Source: Siphonobacter aquaeclarae (GTDB lineage: Bacteria > Bacteroidota > Bacteroidia > Cytophagales > Spirosomataceae). From it: 64,000 bases of DNA. Made by a program: the position numbers and the translations under genes. This document shows, piece after piece, positions 4,671 through 53,475 of this stretch. The stretch is from the NCBI RefSeq assembly GCF_900103285.1, contig NZ_FNGS01000004.1, forward strand, positions 601,960 through 665,959, written 5' to 3'. The notes beneath the pieces were generated by a model. The model was not told where the DNA came from. It saw only the letters and a list, made by a program, of their open reading frames with translations, and searched no databases. How positions within the stretch are numbered: position 1 is the stretch's first letter; each line of letters starts with the position of its first letter.

Positions 4671-4748
4671 TTTCTGTGTAGTCTGTGTTTTCTGTGAGAA
4701 ATAAAAAATGTTGCTCACAGAAAACACAGACTACACAGAAATTATTTT
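4664..4748. terminator. 35-bp perfect inverted repeat holding the ends of two convergent genes
   Basis: The left arm is 4664-4698 and the right arm 4714-4748; they are exact reverse complements (35 bases each) around a 15-base A-rich loop. The left arm includes the TAA of the YceI gene (4668-4670). The right arm includes the TAA of the minus-strand cytochrome gene (4742-4744). Each gene is therefore followed by the same sequence, AAAATAATTTCTGTGTAG and onward. It can fold on either transcript and should act as a bidirectional terminator, though there is no long U tract. The arm is far longer than usual intrinsic terminator stems. Confidence 0.85.
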
Positions 4749-5140
4749 CGGGTTAGTTTATACCATTCTACCTTTTCCAATGGCCGGCGGCGCCCGTCAA
4801 ACGGCTGCTTCACCGGGCCATAGTATTTCACGAGGTAATCCAGGACGGTCGGTTCAGAAGGTCCCAGATCCCACAGTTTGTGGTTTTTCTGCATCCACCG
4901 GATTTTCCCGAGCCAGCCTTCCCGCGTGAACTTGTTCTGCAGGATCAGCTTGCTCGAATGGCAGGCCGTACAATGTGCCTTGATCAGCGGAAGGTTGGCA
5001 TCTACGGCCAACCCCGTCTCCGGATCCGTCTTCACCGAATCGGCGATTATCACCGGTCTCCCCTCTGCTCCATGCCCTCTGCCCCCTGCGGCGAGGGATA
5101 GCCCCCCTACCGCCAGCAACGCTGCCATGACATACTTCAT
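4742..5140 (-). CDS. Monoheme cytochrome c, probable partner of the sulfite-oxidase-like enzyme
   Basis: This is a 132-residue exported protein with a signal peptide (MKYVMAALLAVGGLSLA) and one heme c motif, CTACH (Cys57, Cys60, His61). The ATG at 5140 overlaps the stop of the molybdoenzyme gene (ATGA), so translation is coupled and the start is secure. The arrangement matches bacterial sulfite dehydrogenases, in which a Mo subunit passes electrons to a small cytochrome c; the role is inferred from that. The stretch encoding residues 20-27 (GRGHGAEG, bases 5061-5083) is a copy of a repeat word that elsewhere in the window forms an intergenic hairpin. It lies just after the likely signal-peptide cleavage site. 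Confidence 0.88.
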   Translation of the reverse strand: MKYVMAALLAVGGLSLAAGGRGHGAEGRPVIIADSVKTDPETGLAVDANLPLIKAHCTACHSSKLILQNKFTREGWLGKIRWMQKNHKLWDLGPSEPTVLDYLVKYYGPVKQPFDGRRRPLEKVEWYKLTRK

Positions 5141-6360
5141 ACAATTTTCACAGCGATACGGTGGCACGAATTGTTGATGTATCCTTCCGGATTCCATTGC
5201 GGCATGACCATCGGCTGGCTGACGCCGCCGGTGTCCGTCGCACGGGCCCATACTTCATAATAGCCTTTTTGCGGGAAGCGGATTTCAGCCGTCCAGTGCT
5301 GCCAGGCGAGCCGGTTTTTCGGCGCCTGTAAGGTTGCTTTTTGCCAGGTAGCGCCGAAGTCGATCGACACGTGTAACTCCTTCACTTCCAGGTCTCCCGC
5401 CCAGGCATGCCCGCGCAGGGCGAGGGTACGCCCGTTGTCGATCATGGCGCCGGACTTCGGATACGTAATCACCGACTTCACCGGCATGGATTCGATAATC
5501 CGGAACTGATCTTCCGGGGGATCTACGCCCGGCTCCACCGGTTCTTTCGGTACTTTATAGCTCTTTCCGGTCATTTTGGGACCGTCGTGTACCTTGTTCC
5601 GGATGGCGATGGTATGCAGCCATTTTCCGGAAACGGAGGCAGGCCATCCGCCGACGACCAGGCGCAGCGGATACCCGTGTACGACGGGAATATCCTGCCC
5701 GTTCATCGCCCAGGCAACGAGCGTTTCGTCTTCAAGCGCTTTCTTAATGGGTACTCCGCGGGAGATGACCACCTTCCCCGGCTCCCGGCTGGGGTGAATA
5801 TCCTGGCCATAGTAACCGATGTAGACCGCATCGTCTTTGATACCGGCGTCTTCGAGCAGGTCGCGGAGGCGTACCCCTGTCCATTCGGCGCAGCTGATTC
5901 CGCCCTGCGTCCACTGGTTACCGGAAGTAGCGGGATAGTAGCCGGCGCGGCCATTCCCGCCGCATTCGAGGGTCAGCTGGTAGGTATGGACCTTGAATTT
6001 GGTTTTGAGATCGGCCAGGGTATAGGTCTTAACCGTTTTGGCGGATTCGCCTTTGATTGTCAGGGTCCATTTTTTGACATCGATGCTTTCGGGGACGATG
6101 CCGTTGTTACGGATGAACATTTTGTCAGCCGGAGTAATGGCATCGTCGAGGAGGTGCGCCGGCGTTTCGACGTTCCAGGGGCGGTCGTTCAATACGACCA
6201 TATCCGGATGCTTGCCTTTCAGCGCATCGCGGTCGTTATCAAGCAGGCCCACCGGTATGTAGCCGTCGGGCATGTGGCGGGCAAAAACGATTTCAGTCCC
6301 CAGCGACGCCGCGAGTGCGCTGAGCATAGACTTTCTGATAAACTGTCTGCGGTTCTCCAT
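5137..6360 (-). CDS. Sulfite-oxidase-family molybdopterin oxidoreductase, Tat-exported
   Basis: This 407-residue protein has a twin-arginine signal (NRRQFIRKS, then a hydrophobic stretch to about residue 28), as expected for a folded Mo-cofactor enzyme. The molybdopterin domain contains TLECGGNGRAGYYP, where Cys133 is the expected Mo ligand, then the family blocks ISCAEWTGVRLRDLLEDAG and VHGYPLRLVVGGW. The C-terminal half (about 280-400, including FGATWQKA) is the Ig-like dimerisation domain (Mo-co oxidoreductase dimerisation). Sulfite is the best guess for substrate. Related enzymes act on other oxyanions or sulfoxides, so the assignment is by family and by the adjoining cytochrome c gene. 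Confidence 0.9.
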   Translation of the reverse strand: MENRRQFIRKSMLSALAASLGTEIVFARHMPDGYIPVGLLDNDRDALKGKHPDMVVLNDRPWNVETPAHLLDDAITPADKMFIRNNGIVPESIDVKKWTLTIKGESAKTVKTYTLADLKTKFKVHTYQLTLECGGNGRAGYYPATSGNQWTQGGISCAEWTGVRLRDLLEDAGIKDDAVYIGYYGQDIHPSREPGKVVISRGVPIKKALEDETLVAWAMNGQDIPVVHGYPLRLVVGGWPASVSGKWLHTIAIRNKVHDGPKMTGKSYKVPKEPVEPGVDPPEDQFRIIESMPVKSVITYPKSGAMIDNGRTLALRGHAWAGDLEVKELHVSIDFGATWQKATLQAPKNRLAWQHWTAEIRFPQKGYYEVWARATDTGGVSQPMVMPQWNPEGYINNSCHRIAVKIV

Positions 6361-6984: not shown

Positions 6985-7041
6985 GGCATTGGGCAAAGGG
7001 CATGGGGTTAGAAGCCCTATACCCTCTGCCCCCCGCCCTAC
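6981..7041. terminator. Convergent-gene hairpin made of gggcatgggg words
   Basis: GTAGGGC (6981-6987) pairs with GCCCTAC (7035-7041). Inside it, the stretch 6988-7007 pairs imperfectly with 7015-7034; 21 of 27 positions match over the arm. The left arm holds the TAG of the DinB gene and the right arm the TAG of the minus-strand DUF6194 gene. The inner words (AAAGGGCATGGGG and ACCCTCTGCCCCC) belong to the same word family as the hairpin at 32482-32524. Confidence 0.65.
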
Positions 7042-8040: not shown

Positions 8041-9411
8041 CCCCTCTCCCGCCAGCGGCAGCCGCATAATTACCGTCGTCCCCTGACCTACTTCCGACTG
8101 AAACTCAATACTGCCGCCATGAAGCGTCAGGATTTTCTGTACCACGGCCAGCCCGATGCCGAAGCCCGTTACATGCGATACTTCGTTGCTGCGGAAGAAC
8201 GGTTCCAGCAAATGCGGGAGATCCTGCTGGGCAATACCCTGCCCCTGATCTCGGATGGTGAGCGAAAGGCTGTGTTCCGTTTCCTGGCTGAGGACAATCT
8301 CCACCGGTCCGTCGGAGTACTTGCAGGCGTTGTCGACCACGTTCAGGATACACGTCGTCAGCAGGGTACTATTCCCCTGAATCTCAAAGAAATGATCGGA
8401 GTTTTCGGGTAGTATGCCGAATTCGTACCGGATCTGCCGGCCCGGGTACTTGTTGTACAGATGTGAGAGCGCATTGGTGATGCAGTCATCCACCGAAATC
8501 AACTCCAGCCCGACAAGCCCCTCGCCCGTTCTGGCCAGAGATAACAAGCTGTTGGTGAGTGATATAAGCTGACGGATCTCGTCCATCGCCGAACGGATGG
8601 ATTGCTTCAGTTCGCCGGTATCCTGATCGTAGTCGTGGGAAATCTGAAGGGTACCCAGCAGGTTGGTCAGCGGCGTACGCAATTCGTGTGACGCATGGGA
8701 GACGAAGCTGCGCTGGGCTTCGAACGACTTTTCCAGGCGGTTGAGCATCTGGTTGAACGTCATCGCCAGACGGGCTATTTCGTCCCGGCGGTTTCCTTCG
8801 TCCAGGCGTCGGTCCAGGTGCTGCGCCGAAATGGTATCCACCTCGTCCATCGCCTTCGAGATAGGCTTCAGCACCCTGCTGGCGAAGAAATAGCCCACGA
8901 CTACCAGCAATATCATACTTCCGAGATTTCCCCAGAGCAGCAATTGCTTGAGCATAATCAGACGGGTAAACCCGACCTGGTCATAGCCCATCGCGACGAC
9001 ATGGAAGACTTTGCTGGAATCAGCGTGGAGGATACCTACCGCCTCGTTTTCCCCGACCTGAAAATACAGGGGATGTTTTCCGGTCAGCTTGGGCAAATGC
9101 GCCTTGACAGCGGGAGAAGCATCGCCGCGCCGGTTGGTATACACGAGTACGCCCTTTTCGTCAAAGATCATGATGTGCTCGTCGACGATCGTGAGCATAT
9201 CGCTCCGCATCAGCTGATTGAAGAAGTCGTCAAACTGGTGGCGGCGGTTGATGAGCAGGCCCGCGGCGGTTTCGGCCTTTTCGGTAAGGCGCGTCCGGAA
9301 AATAACCTGACGGTAGAGGGAAAACGTCGAGTACAGGAAAGTCGACAGCAATCCCAGTACTCCCATCGTCAGAAGGGTAAAGAGAAGAATCAGTTTGTTC
9401 CGGATGAGCAT
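8035..9411 (-). CDS. Sensor histidine kinase (HAMP, HisKA, HATPase)
   Basis: The 458-residue product begins at the ATG at 9411; a TTG 30 bases upstream is less likely. Two membrane helices (about 8-30 and 158-178) enclose a periplasmic sensor of about 125 residues. A HAMP linker follows (about 178-230), then the HisKA box SHASHELRTPL with the phosphorylated His242. The ATPase core has NVVDNACKYS (N box), DQGQGI (G1) and GFGIGLAVV (G2). It lies 56 bases downstream of an OmpR-type regulator on the same strand and is its obvious partner. The stimulus is unknown; the architecture resembles metal- or envelope-stress-sensing kinases such as CusS. Confidence 0.95.
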   Translation of the reverse strand: MLIRNKLILLFTLLTMGVLGLLSTFLYSTFSLYRQVIFRTRLTEKAETAAGLLINRRHQFDDFFNQLMRSDMLTIVDEHIMIFDEKGVLVYTNRRGDASPAVKAHLPKLTGKHPLYFQVGENEAVGILHADSSKVFHVVAMGYDQVGFTRLIMLKQLLLWGNLGSMILLVVVGYFFASRVLKPISKAMDEVDTISAQHLDRRLDEGNRRDEIARLAMTFNQMLNRLEKSFEAQRSFVSHASHELRTPLTNLLGTLQISHDYDQDTGELKQSIRSAMDEIRQLISLTNSLLSLARTGEGLVGLELISVDDCITNALSHLYNKYPGRQIRYEFGILPENSDHFFEIQGNSTLLTTCILNVVDNACKYSDGPVEIVLSQETEHSLSLTIRDQGQGIAQQDLPHLLEPFFRSNEVSHVTGFGIGLAVVQKILTLHGGSIEFQSEVGQGTTVIMRLPLAGEGS

Positions 9412-9467
9412 GGGCAGAAAAATTGCAGCACAAAGACTCAAATATACGCCCCGTTCGGATGCCGGCG

Positions 9468-10148
9468 CTATCCTTCGTCACGCAGTACGTATCCCATGCC
9501 GATAACCGTATGGATCAGCTTTTTGGGAAAGTCCTTGTCGACCTTCTTCCGGAGAAAATTGATATATACTTCGATGGTGTTGGTACCGGTGTCAAAGTGA
9601 AGGTCCCACACCTTTTCGGCGATGTCCACGCGGGATACGACGCGGCCTCTGTTGCGCATCAGGTATTCCAGCAGGCTGAATTCCTTGGCGGTGAGGTCTA
9701 TCCGGCGACCGCCCCGGCGGGCTACCTTTTCCTCGAGATCGAGCTCCAGGTCGGCTACCTGCAATACCTGCTGGCTCATGGGAGCCGCCTGACTCCGGCG
9801 GTACAGCGACCGCAGCCGGGCCAGTAATTCCCTGAATTCAAAGGGCTTGACGAGGTAGTCATCCGCGCCGGAGTCCAGGCCCGTCACCTTGTCTTCGAGC
9901 TCGCCCAGGGCAGTCAGCATGAGGACAGGCGTGTTGACGCCCTCCGCCCGGAGCCGTTTCACCAGGTCGAATCCGTTGATATGCGGCAGGTTGACGTCGA
10001 GTACAATCACATCGAACGCTTCACTCAATGCCATCTTCTGACCCATCAGGCCATCAAAAGCGACGACAGCTTCAAAAGCCTCGGCCTCCAGCCCCCGCTT
10101 GACAAAGGCAGCCAGTTTGGGTTCGTCTTCGACAATTAAAACCTTCAT
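9468..10148 (-). CDS. OmpR/PhoB family response regulator
   Basis: This 226-residue regulator has an N-terminal receiver (MKVLIVEDEPKLAAFVKRG) with phosphoacceptor Asp51 in VLDVNLPHINGF and the conserved Lys101 in DDYLVKPFEF. The C-terminal winged-helix domain (about 125-225) includes LTAKEFSLLEYLMRNRGRVV and TNTIEVYINFLRKK. The ATG at 10148 is chosen because the receiver starts there; the frame stays open upstream without homology. It precedes the histidine kinase gene and should be phosphorylated by it. The targets are unknown. Confidence 0.95.
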   Translation of the reverse strand: MKVLIVEDEPKLAAFVKRGLEAEAFEAVVAFDGLMGQKMALSEAFDVIVLDVNLPHINGFDLVKRLRAEGVNTPVLMLTALGELEDKVTGLDSGADDYLVKPFEFRELLARLRSLYRRSQAAPMSQQVLQVADLELDLEEKVARRGGRRIDLTAKEFSLLEYLMRNRGRVVSRVDIAEKVWDLHFDTGTNTIEVYINFLRKKVDKDFPKKLIHTVIGMGYVLRDEG

Positions 10149-10244
10149 GGGGGTAGTCGGAACGTTTTCTTCCCGGAAAGTAGCAATATTTTGATAGAGC
10201 AACATCTCTTCACTGGGTAATTGTGTTGACGGAATCCCGGACAG

Positions 10245-10272
10245 GCAAAGCCCGGAAGACTCCGGGCTATGC
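10245..10272. terminator. Hairpin after the DUF4136 gene
   Basis: GCAAAGCCCGGA (10245-10256) pairs with TCCGGGCTATGC (10261-10272), with one mismatch and a 4-base loop. It lies 31 bases past the minus-strand stop of the DUF4136 gene. There is no U tract after it, so termination is only likely. Confidence 0.45.
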
Positions 10273-10302
10273 ACTCTCCTATCGGCCATGAAAAACCGGT
10301 TG

Positions 10303-10884
10303 CTATGCTTCTGCCACCGGATATCGTTTCATCATTTTGTGTACTCCTCTGGCGATCAGCCGGTCAAGGCCTCTTGCACCGCTCAGCGGGCTCTGGGCCA
10401 CGCCGCGCCAGACAAGGTGTCCGGTATGGGTATCGACAAAGTCTATGACCATCGTCCCCTCCGTCATCGTCTGGTTGTAGTAAGACGGCCCGCCGTAATA
10501 CATAAACGGCGCATACCGCATCCCCCATCCCCAGCCGTAGTACGGATAGCCTCCATAGGGGCCGTTGTATACCCGCTGGTTTTTCCGTTCGGTATAGGTA
10601 TGGACTACGACCTGCAGATCCGGGTTGTCGGACTGGGTCAGCCCCCGGCGGGACAGCTCATACCCGACGTTATCGCGGATACTCCGCGTAATGAGGTCAC
10701 TTTGATAGACCGGATTCGGCCCGGTCTTCACATCGGTATCGCCCCAGTTAAAGGTATGATACTGATTGAAATCCGCACTTTTATCACGGTCGGTCGTGAC
10801 TTGTGCGAAGCTGGTCAGGACTGTCGCTCCCAGCAGTCCGAAGGCCATTCCCAATATTTTGACGACAGTTTTCATCGCTTTCAC
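10303..10884 (-). CDS. DUF4136 domain-containing exported protein
   Basis: This is a 193-residue protein with a signal peptide (MKAMKTVVKILGMAFGLL to TSFA) and the DUF4136 pattern: DFNQYHTFNWGDTDV, then IRDNVGYELSRRGLTQSDNPDLQVVVH, a Tyr/Gly-rich segment (GPYGGYPYYGWGWG), and a C-terminal GTMVIDFVDTHTGHLVWRG. A second ATG at 10875 (MKTVVK) could be the true start. DUF4136 proteins are envelope proteins of unknown role. It lies 72 bases downstream of an ECF sigma factor gene on the same strand and may be co-transcribed with it. Confidence 0.85.
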   Translation of the reverse strand: MKAMKTVVKILGMAFGLLGATVLTSFAQVTTDRDKSADFNQYHTFNWGDTDVKTGPNPVYQSDLITRSIRDNVGYELSRRGLTQSDNPDLQVVVHTYTERKNQRVYNGPYGGYPYYGWGWGMRYAPFMYYGGPSYYNQTMTEGTMVIDFVDTHTGHLVWRGVAQSPLSGARGLDRLIARGVHKMMKRYPVAEA

Positions 10885-29203: not shown

Positions 29204-29285
29204 GCAATAGGCTTTAGGCTGTAAGCTATAAGCCATGCTTACCGGCTGTTGCCTATAGCCTAACGCCTATTGCTTAAAGCCTATC
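29204..29285. repeat. gctttaagcctatagc-word hairpin upstream of kduI
   Basis: GCAATAGGCTTTAGGCT (29204-29220) pairs with AGCCTAACGCCTATTGC (29257-29273), 16 of 17 positions, with further words (GTAAGCTATAAGCC, TTGCTTAAAGCCTAT) in the loop and tail. It lies between divergent genes, the kduI start and the ABC exporter start, so it is not an obvious terminator here. It belongs to the same word family as 35374-35456 and 48324-48437. Confidence 0.7.
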
Positions 29286-32467: not shown

Positions 32468-32481
32468 TTAAAAAGCTTGGG

Positions 32482-32524
32482 GCATGGAGCAGAGGGCATG
32501 GGGCGAAAGCCCTCTGCTCCATGC
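32482..32524. terminator. gggcatggagcagaggg-word hairpin after the KDPG aldolase gene
   Basis: GCATGGAGCAGAGGGC (32482-32497) pairs perfectly with GCCCTCTGCTCCATGC (32509-32524), 16 bp with an 11-base loop. More of the word (TCCATGCCCTCTGC) continues to 32538, just short of the minus-strand aldolase stop at 32540. It is a likely terminator for that gene. The same word occurs at 6981-7041 and inside the cytochrome c gene at 5061-5083. Confidence 0.75.
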
Positions 32525-32539
32525 TCCATGCCCTCTGCA

Positions 32540-35373: not shown

Positions 35374-35456
35374 GCTGTAAGCTTTAAGCCATAGGCTTTA
35401 AGCAGCGGCCCGTATTCATGCTTTTTGCTTAAAGCCTATGGCTTAAAGCTTACAGC
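35374..35456. repeat. 31-bp perfect inverted repeat of gctttaagcctatagc words
   Basis: The left arm 35374-35404 and right arm 35426-35456 are exact reverse complements (31 bases) around a 21-base loop. The arms are made of GCTGTAAGCTTTAAGCC and ATAGGCTTTAAGCA. It lies downstream of the TIM-barrel gene and upstream of the aldo/keto reductase start, next to another perfect palindrome, and belongs to the family seen at 29204 and 48324. Confidence 0.85.
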
Positions 35457-35459
35457 TCT

Positions 35460-48321: not shown

Positions 48322-48323
48322 GG

Positions 48324-48437
48324 GCTTTAAGCAGTAAGCTATAGGCTTTAGGCTTTAGGCTCAGGGCCGCGAGCCATAAGCTTACTGCCTATAGCTTACT
48401 GCCTATAGCTTACTGCTTATAGCTTACTGCTTAAAGC
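48324..48437. repeat. gctttaagcctatagc-word hairpin with 14-base tandem repeats
   Basis: GCTTTAAGCAGTAAGCTATA (48324-48343) is an exact reverse complement of 48418-48437. Between them, 48376-48432 is a tandem array of one 15-base and three 14-base units (ATAGCTTACTGCCT and ATAGCTTACTGCTT). It begins two bases after the stop of the Calx-beta lipoprotein gene. It belongs to the word family seen at 29204 and 35374. Confidence 0.85.
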
Positions 48438-48449
48438 TCCCGTGACTTA

Positions 48450-53378: not shown

Positions 53379-53475
53379 GCGGTTTTCGGTTTACTGTTTT
53401 CCGTTTTCAGTTAAAGCGTCCGAAAACTGAAAACCGCAAACTGAAAACTGATTTTCCTAACCTGAAAACTGATTT
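53379..53475. repeat. gaaaactg-word repeat between ccoG and ccoH
   Basis: The spacer is made of GCGGTTTTCGGTTTACTG, then CCGTTTTCAG, and the inverse words CGAAAACTGAAAACCGC, then two copies of CTGAAAACTGATTTTCC separated by TAAC. The two halves are imperfect inverse copies. It begins directly after the ccoG stop and ends three bases before the ccoH start, so it is inside an operon. It belongs to the word family found at 8003 and 20088. Confidence 0.75.

Follow-up and report, generated by a model that had tools for sequence, protein, structure and literature searches.

G-rich heptamer repeats with the units GGGAATC or GGGGA(C/T)T have been described in Xanthomonas and Nostoc, where they are mostly intergenic (Rehm et al. 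2015, PMC4692102). Heptamer repeats of the unit TAACTGA occur in Beggiatoaceae, cyanobacteria and some Bacteroidetes, with rare coding cases located at the protein periphery (MacGregor 2015, PMC4679880). Rickettsia palindromic elements (RPE) are found both between genes and in frame within conserved proteins (review PMC2229807), and coding palindromes are known from nematomorph mitochondria, in which the identity of the arms has been attributed to template switching (PMC6649704). For Spirosomataceae we found nothing specific on these repeats in open-licence papers, a weak form of absence, and the open-licence literature likewise yielded no description of heptad hairpins that differ in sequence between related species while sharing one protein loop.

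The window analysed here is a stretch of 64,000 bp from the 6.19 Mb genome of Siphonobacter aquaeclarae (G000). It contains a c-type cytochrome gene that carries an array of one of several heptad repeat families, which we call F1. The following features of the window are referred to below.

4673..4741, no strand: inverted repeat of the 9-base unit CACAGAAAACACAGACTA, in the spacer separating the cytochrome gene from its convergent neighbour
4742..5140, minus strand: host gene, c-type cytochrome precursor of 132 aa with one CTACH haem motif
5061..5089, minus strand: F1 array of four in-phase heptads plus one G (GCAGGGG GCAGAGG GCATGGA GCAGAGG), coding for residues 18-27, AGGRGHGAEG
5137..6360, minus strand: upstream gene of the same operon, putatively sulfite-oxidase-like by inspection
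6993..7029, no strand: short F1 units (GCAAAGGGCATGGG, CCTCTGC), in the spacer of a convergent gene pair
32480..32538, no strand: intergenic F1 hairpin with a 15-base core on both arms

The initial annotation had noted that a 20-base word, AGAGGGCATGGAGCAGAGGG, at 5061-5080 on the minus strand encodes part of G20-G27 (GRGHGAEG) in the 132-residue open reading frame 5140..4742, and this proved correct, the heptad run proper (5062-5089, minus strand) being slightly larger than the feature first marked. The 15-base core was confirmed as an exact match at 32482-32496 on the plus strand, as had been stated, and also occurs at 32510-32524 on the minus strand; the second arm of that hairpin is indeed the same word with a 7-base duplication, consisting of one extra GCATGGA heptad. 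The cytochrome gene shares an ATGA overlap with the upstream gene. By inspection, signal peptidase is likely to cut at SLA17|A18, which would place the start of the array at the first mature residue. Since it consists of a single G-rich arm whose partner is absent, the cytochrome copy is unable to form a hairpin. A special mRNA fold at the start of the cytochrome gene was also considered and rejected, the local RNA fold being ordinary (z -0.26). No relative of this cytochrome with a solved structure was found.

That the word recurs elsewhere in the genome was borne out by 65 sites at no more than one mismatch, compared with a single site for the reversed-pattern control. A pattern of three in-phase heptads gave 99 genome matches against 0 in its control, and the window held four matches against 0.12 expected. 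With the cytochrome gene as a BLAST query, other genome sites were recovered at 90-93% identity over 29-31 bp, one of them inside another gene. Spacers were analysed in a 1.23 Mb sample of the genome drawn around F1 sites, in which densities are not genome averages, and with gene calls from a simple hexamer model, which makes the fractions approximate. Self-matches in these spacers numbered 28, 54, 22 and 13 at lags 7, 14, 21 and 28, respectively, and 10 at lag 9, with nearly all other lags at 0-2; the period-7 excess in genes was almost nil. We recognised the F1 family (units GCATGGG/GCAGAGG, also GCATGGA and GCAGGGG), F2 (AAAACTG/AAAACCG), F3 (AAGCCTA-like units), F4 (AAACCCT/AAACTCT) and, separate from the heptad families, a family with a 9-base unit. 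These families mostly form hairpins, the arms of which pair although the order of units varies between copies, and slippage makes heptad arrays grow and contract in this genome and its relatives. The main F1 unit pair is free of stop codons in all six frames, and arrays with GCATAGG contain them on one strand. In F2 one strand has stops, in F3 and F4 both strands do. In the window, F2-type arrays (GTTTTCG, GAAAACT) are also present at 293-316 and 53380-53451, and F3-type arrays (AGCTTAC/TGCCTAT/GGCTTTA) at 48323-48438, 29251-29284 and 35427-35457, those tested being intergenic.

At the position of the 32482 hairpin, five congeners carry a different, non-heptad hairpin of the form AAAAAGATCGC..GCGATCTT, and in the slot after the cytochrome gene, held in the window by the 9-base inverted repeat, three of the five carry (TTTTCAG)n or (TTTTGAG)n as a long array. 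The repeat slots thus look conserved while the sequences in them are not. We found no link to REP elements mobilised by a RAYT transposase, as the 3.3-kb locus of the only Y1_Tnp gene in the genome is free of F1 arrays. This sole Y1 transposase gene (L383, G000:C18:329412-329756) adjoins a perfect GCCCGGCAT hairpin that is unrelated to F1.

F1 resembles the heptamers of Xanthomonas and Nostoc in having a 7-base G-rich unit that is over-represented in tandem in non-coding DNA, in having few arrays beyond four units, and in its orientation, the G-rich strand being sense after stops and antisense before starts, with divergent spacers avoided (PMC4692102). In S. aquaeclarae the G-rich F1 strand was sense after stop codons in 59 cases versus 19 and antisense upstream of starts at 14:1, and heptad repeats, often no more than 15 bases from a stop codon, were present in 26% of convergent versus 7% of divergent spacers (Fisher p 0.0002). 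Unlike those heptamers, F1 is built of GCATGGG, GCAGAGG, GCATGGA and GCAGGGG rather than GGGAATC or GGGGA(C/T)T, mixes units within an array, is mostly hairpin-paired, and occurs also inside conserved protein loops. With the TAACTGA repeats it shares the 7-base unit, a patchy distribution across lineages and rare coding cases (PMC4679880), but forward TAACTGA arrays have stop codons in every frame and precede starts, whereas the main F1 units are stop-free and lie after stops. RPE are similar as palindromic repeats that are both intergenic and in frame in conserved proteins; they differ in being homologous families of 105-146 bp, and no homologous element of that size with terminal inverted repeats was found here, the F1 arms being variable strings of reshuffled heptads, with unrelated inverted repeats occupying the same protein loop in different species. 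An in-frame palindrome absent from orthologs, as in RPE, is seen in two proteins of a related genome (G071, below) and not in the window cytochrome, which has a single arm and no net gain. The nematomorph palindromes also lie within coding sequence, but there both arms code for conserved residues, whereas here the loops are variable and the window copy is one-armed.

We compared the cytochrome across 30 orthologs, including five from the same genus. These nearest orthologs are 66-69% identical and all five lack the word; in the DNA alignment, the signal peptide before the array and the mature domain after it are homologous. Strong 7-base periodicity was confined to the window linker among the 30 ortholog linkers (14/21 matches, shuffle p about 0.01; next best 11/21). 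The initial annotation had proposed that a repeat element was inserted in frame behind the signal peptide, and predicted a gap at residues 20-27 in relatives. This gap was not seen: between the start Met and the conserved D(S/T)VK block the window gene has 33 residues and the congeners have 33, 33, 35, 35 and 35, with a range of 33 to 47 over the 30 orthologs, the window value being the minimum. A dispersed repeat, in frame in the post-signal linker and missing from congeners, thus stands, plain insertion into this gene does not, no length having been gained, and the proposal is partly supported, right in kind and wrong in the predicted gap. Because the N-terminus is no longer than in orthologs, the array appears to have replaced linker sequence without lengthening it. 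Given that the nearest orthologs are 66-69% identical and none displays the linker as it was before the change, we infer the replacement from length and repeat content.

The genome holds a second coding case, in a di-haem cytochrome c peroxidase (L219, G000:C18). Its array, GCAGGGGGCAGAGGGCAGGGGGCGGAGGGGA, is identical to the cytochrome array at 28 of 31 bases and has the same frame (AGGRGQGAEG) and the same ends, with unrelated flanks. The corresponding loop is longer in relatives, which suggests that here too the array replaced existing sequence. With context checked for all three-unit F1 sites of the genome, the cytochrome and the peroxidase are the only ones inside genes, and a few others overlap C-terminal codons. 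Two length-neutral or shortening cases in one genome require either a compensating deletion or overwriting. At L129, convergent genes at 9013-9534 (plus strand) and 9596-10783 (minus strand) both end in F1 heptads, with the C-termini RMGQGG and RGMGHRA, respectively.

The 15-base pattern was found in 19 of 150 genomes of the family, while an 18-base pattern, too strict for spread to be judged from it, was present in none of 395 other genomes across the phylum. In other genera, conserved proteins contain whole F1 hairpins in frame, and several orthologs show clear gaps. In G071, a CrtI-like protein has about 25 extra residues compared with short loops in congeners, and an ASPIC/VCBS protein likewise has an F1 hairpin insertion opposite gaps in congeners; in the ASPIC/VCBS ortholog of G091, the loop that holds the F1 hairpin of G071 is occupied by a different, purine-rich inverted repeat. 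Further in-frame F1 hairpins were found as follows.

UvrA, in G071 and G120
FAD-oxidase/iron-sulfur fusion protein, in G071
MurF-Alr and a PD-(D/E)XK protein, in G120
RND transporter, in G142
LeuRS, in G064

The inserted stretch is absent from solved UvrA and LeuRS structures. F1 sites inside genes made up 4 of 12 in G071, 3 of 15 in G120, 1 of 5 in G142 and 1 of 2 in G064, and 0 of 27 in G135, G101 and G027. Coding matches in TsaB and, in three genomes, in GltB (motif RMEHRGA) were set aside on inspection as ordinary conserved sequence; one further apparent coding match came from G024. The suggestion that an insertion would be tolerated only in the cytochrome linker was too narrow, as the family also occupies an internal loop of the peroxidase in the same genome and, in relatives, loops of cytosolic enzymes, among them UvrA, LeuRS and CrtI. 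Since F1 enters an internal peroxidase loop and loops of cytosolic enzymes, disposable loops rather than export are the key.

The loop that follows QGT in UvrA was compared in 31 sequences of the family (L353-L382, L330). With a length cut set once the data had been seen, an inverted repeat of a kind rarely or never reached by codon shuffles was present in 9 of the 12 loops with at least 27 residues and in 0 of 19 shorter loops. Within one genus, this loop contains F1 units in G071, AGTTATG/AGTTAAG units in G043 and no repeat in G016, and the inverted repeats found in it in different genera also differ in sequence; the units in G038 and G002 are AGGAGCG/AGGAGTG. Among the nine inverted repeats, that of G008 has period 8, and those of G006, G028 and G039 have no clear period 7.

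The reading that we regard as probable is that the cytochrome array is a one-arm copy of F1 that overwrote about ten linker codons and was kept as harmless. Its source would be the dispersed G-rich heptad repeat whose usual form is a hairpin in the spacer directly behind a stop codon, and the copying event was probably a template switch or a short ectopic conversion between G-rich stretches, processes that would explain identical arms as well as overwriting with no need for an enzyme. A plain in-frame insertion into the linker, with its gain hidden by a later deletion, seems unlikely, despite the true in-frame gains in relatives: the window gene has also lost two signal-peptide codons and the upstream spacer, so deletions did happen near the array, but there is no net gain in a linker already at the minimum of the 30 orthologs, and the peroxidase loop with the array is shorter than in relatives. 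We give still less weight to local slippage, by which a G-rich stretch of the linker would have expanded in place into heptads with nothing copied in; heptad arrays plainly grow and shrink in this way, but it would not reproduce the exact set of units used by the family: 15 bases occur exactly at other loci, and 28 of 31 are shared with the peroxidase array.

Gly-rich coding sequence arisen by chance or convergence can for practical purposes be dismissed, even though the linker can vary freely and many linkers are Gly-rich. Ten rounds of codon-shuffling over every gene called in the 1.23 Mb sample, of which about 1.08 Mb is coding, gave no run of more than two units and only four two-unit runs, and AGA, which accounts for 2% of Arg codons here, is used twice, in the array and just after it; the absence of longer runs in shuffled genes and the rarity of AGA exclude chance, and the single reversed-control site against 65 also counts against it. 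In the overwriting model, the F1 copy would have taken the place of about ten codons of the hypervariable linker behind the signal peptide. It would have been retained because none of the six frames of the main F1 heptads contains a stop, the frame was kept, the product is a flexible Gly-rich peptide, and the sequence of the linker hardly matters. The effect of the array on the cytochrome is most likely neutral. In related genera, the family occupies further dispensable loops as whole hairpins and so lengthens the protein.

These observations join two literatures, on intergenic heptamer repeats and on in-frame palindromic elements, and for annotation they mean that such repeat-derived loops should not be read as functional domains. 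The UvrA loop, with its 31 sequences compared, offers a natural test bed for the origin, spread and turnover of palindromes in coding DNA. More tentatively, the heptad hairpins of Spirosomataceae may make up a class of DNA that renews itself and settles again and again both at gene ends and in dispensable protein loops; template switching would restore arm identity, so that one loop, as in UvrA, could hold unrelated hairpins even within a genus, and stop-free units such as F1 could persist in coding sequence. In these free-living bacteria, a non-coding tandem repeat supplies protein sequence to conserved enzymes and to an exported cytochrome.
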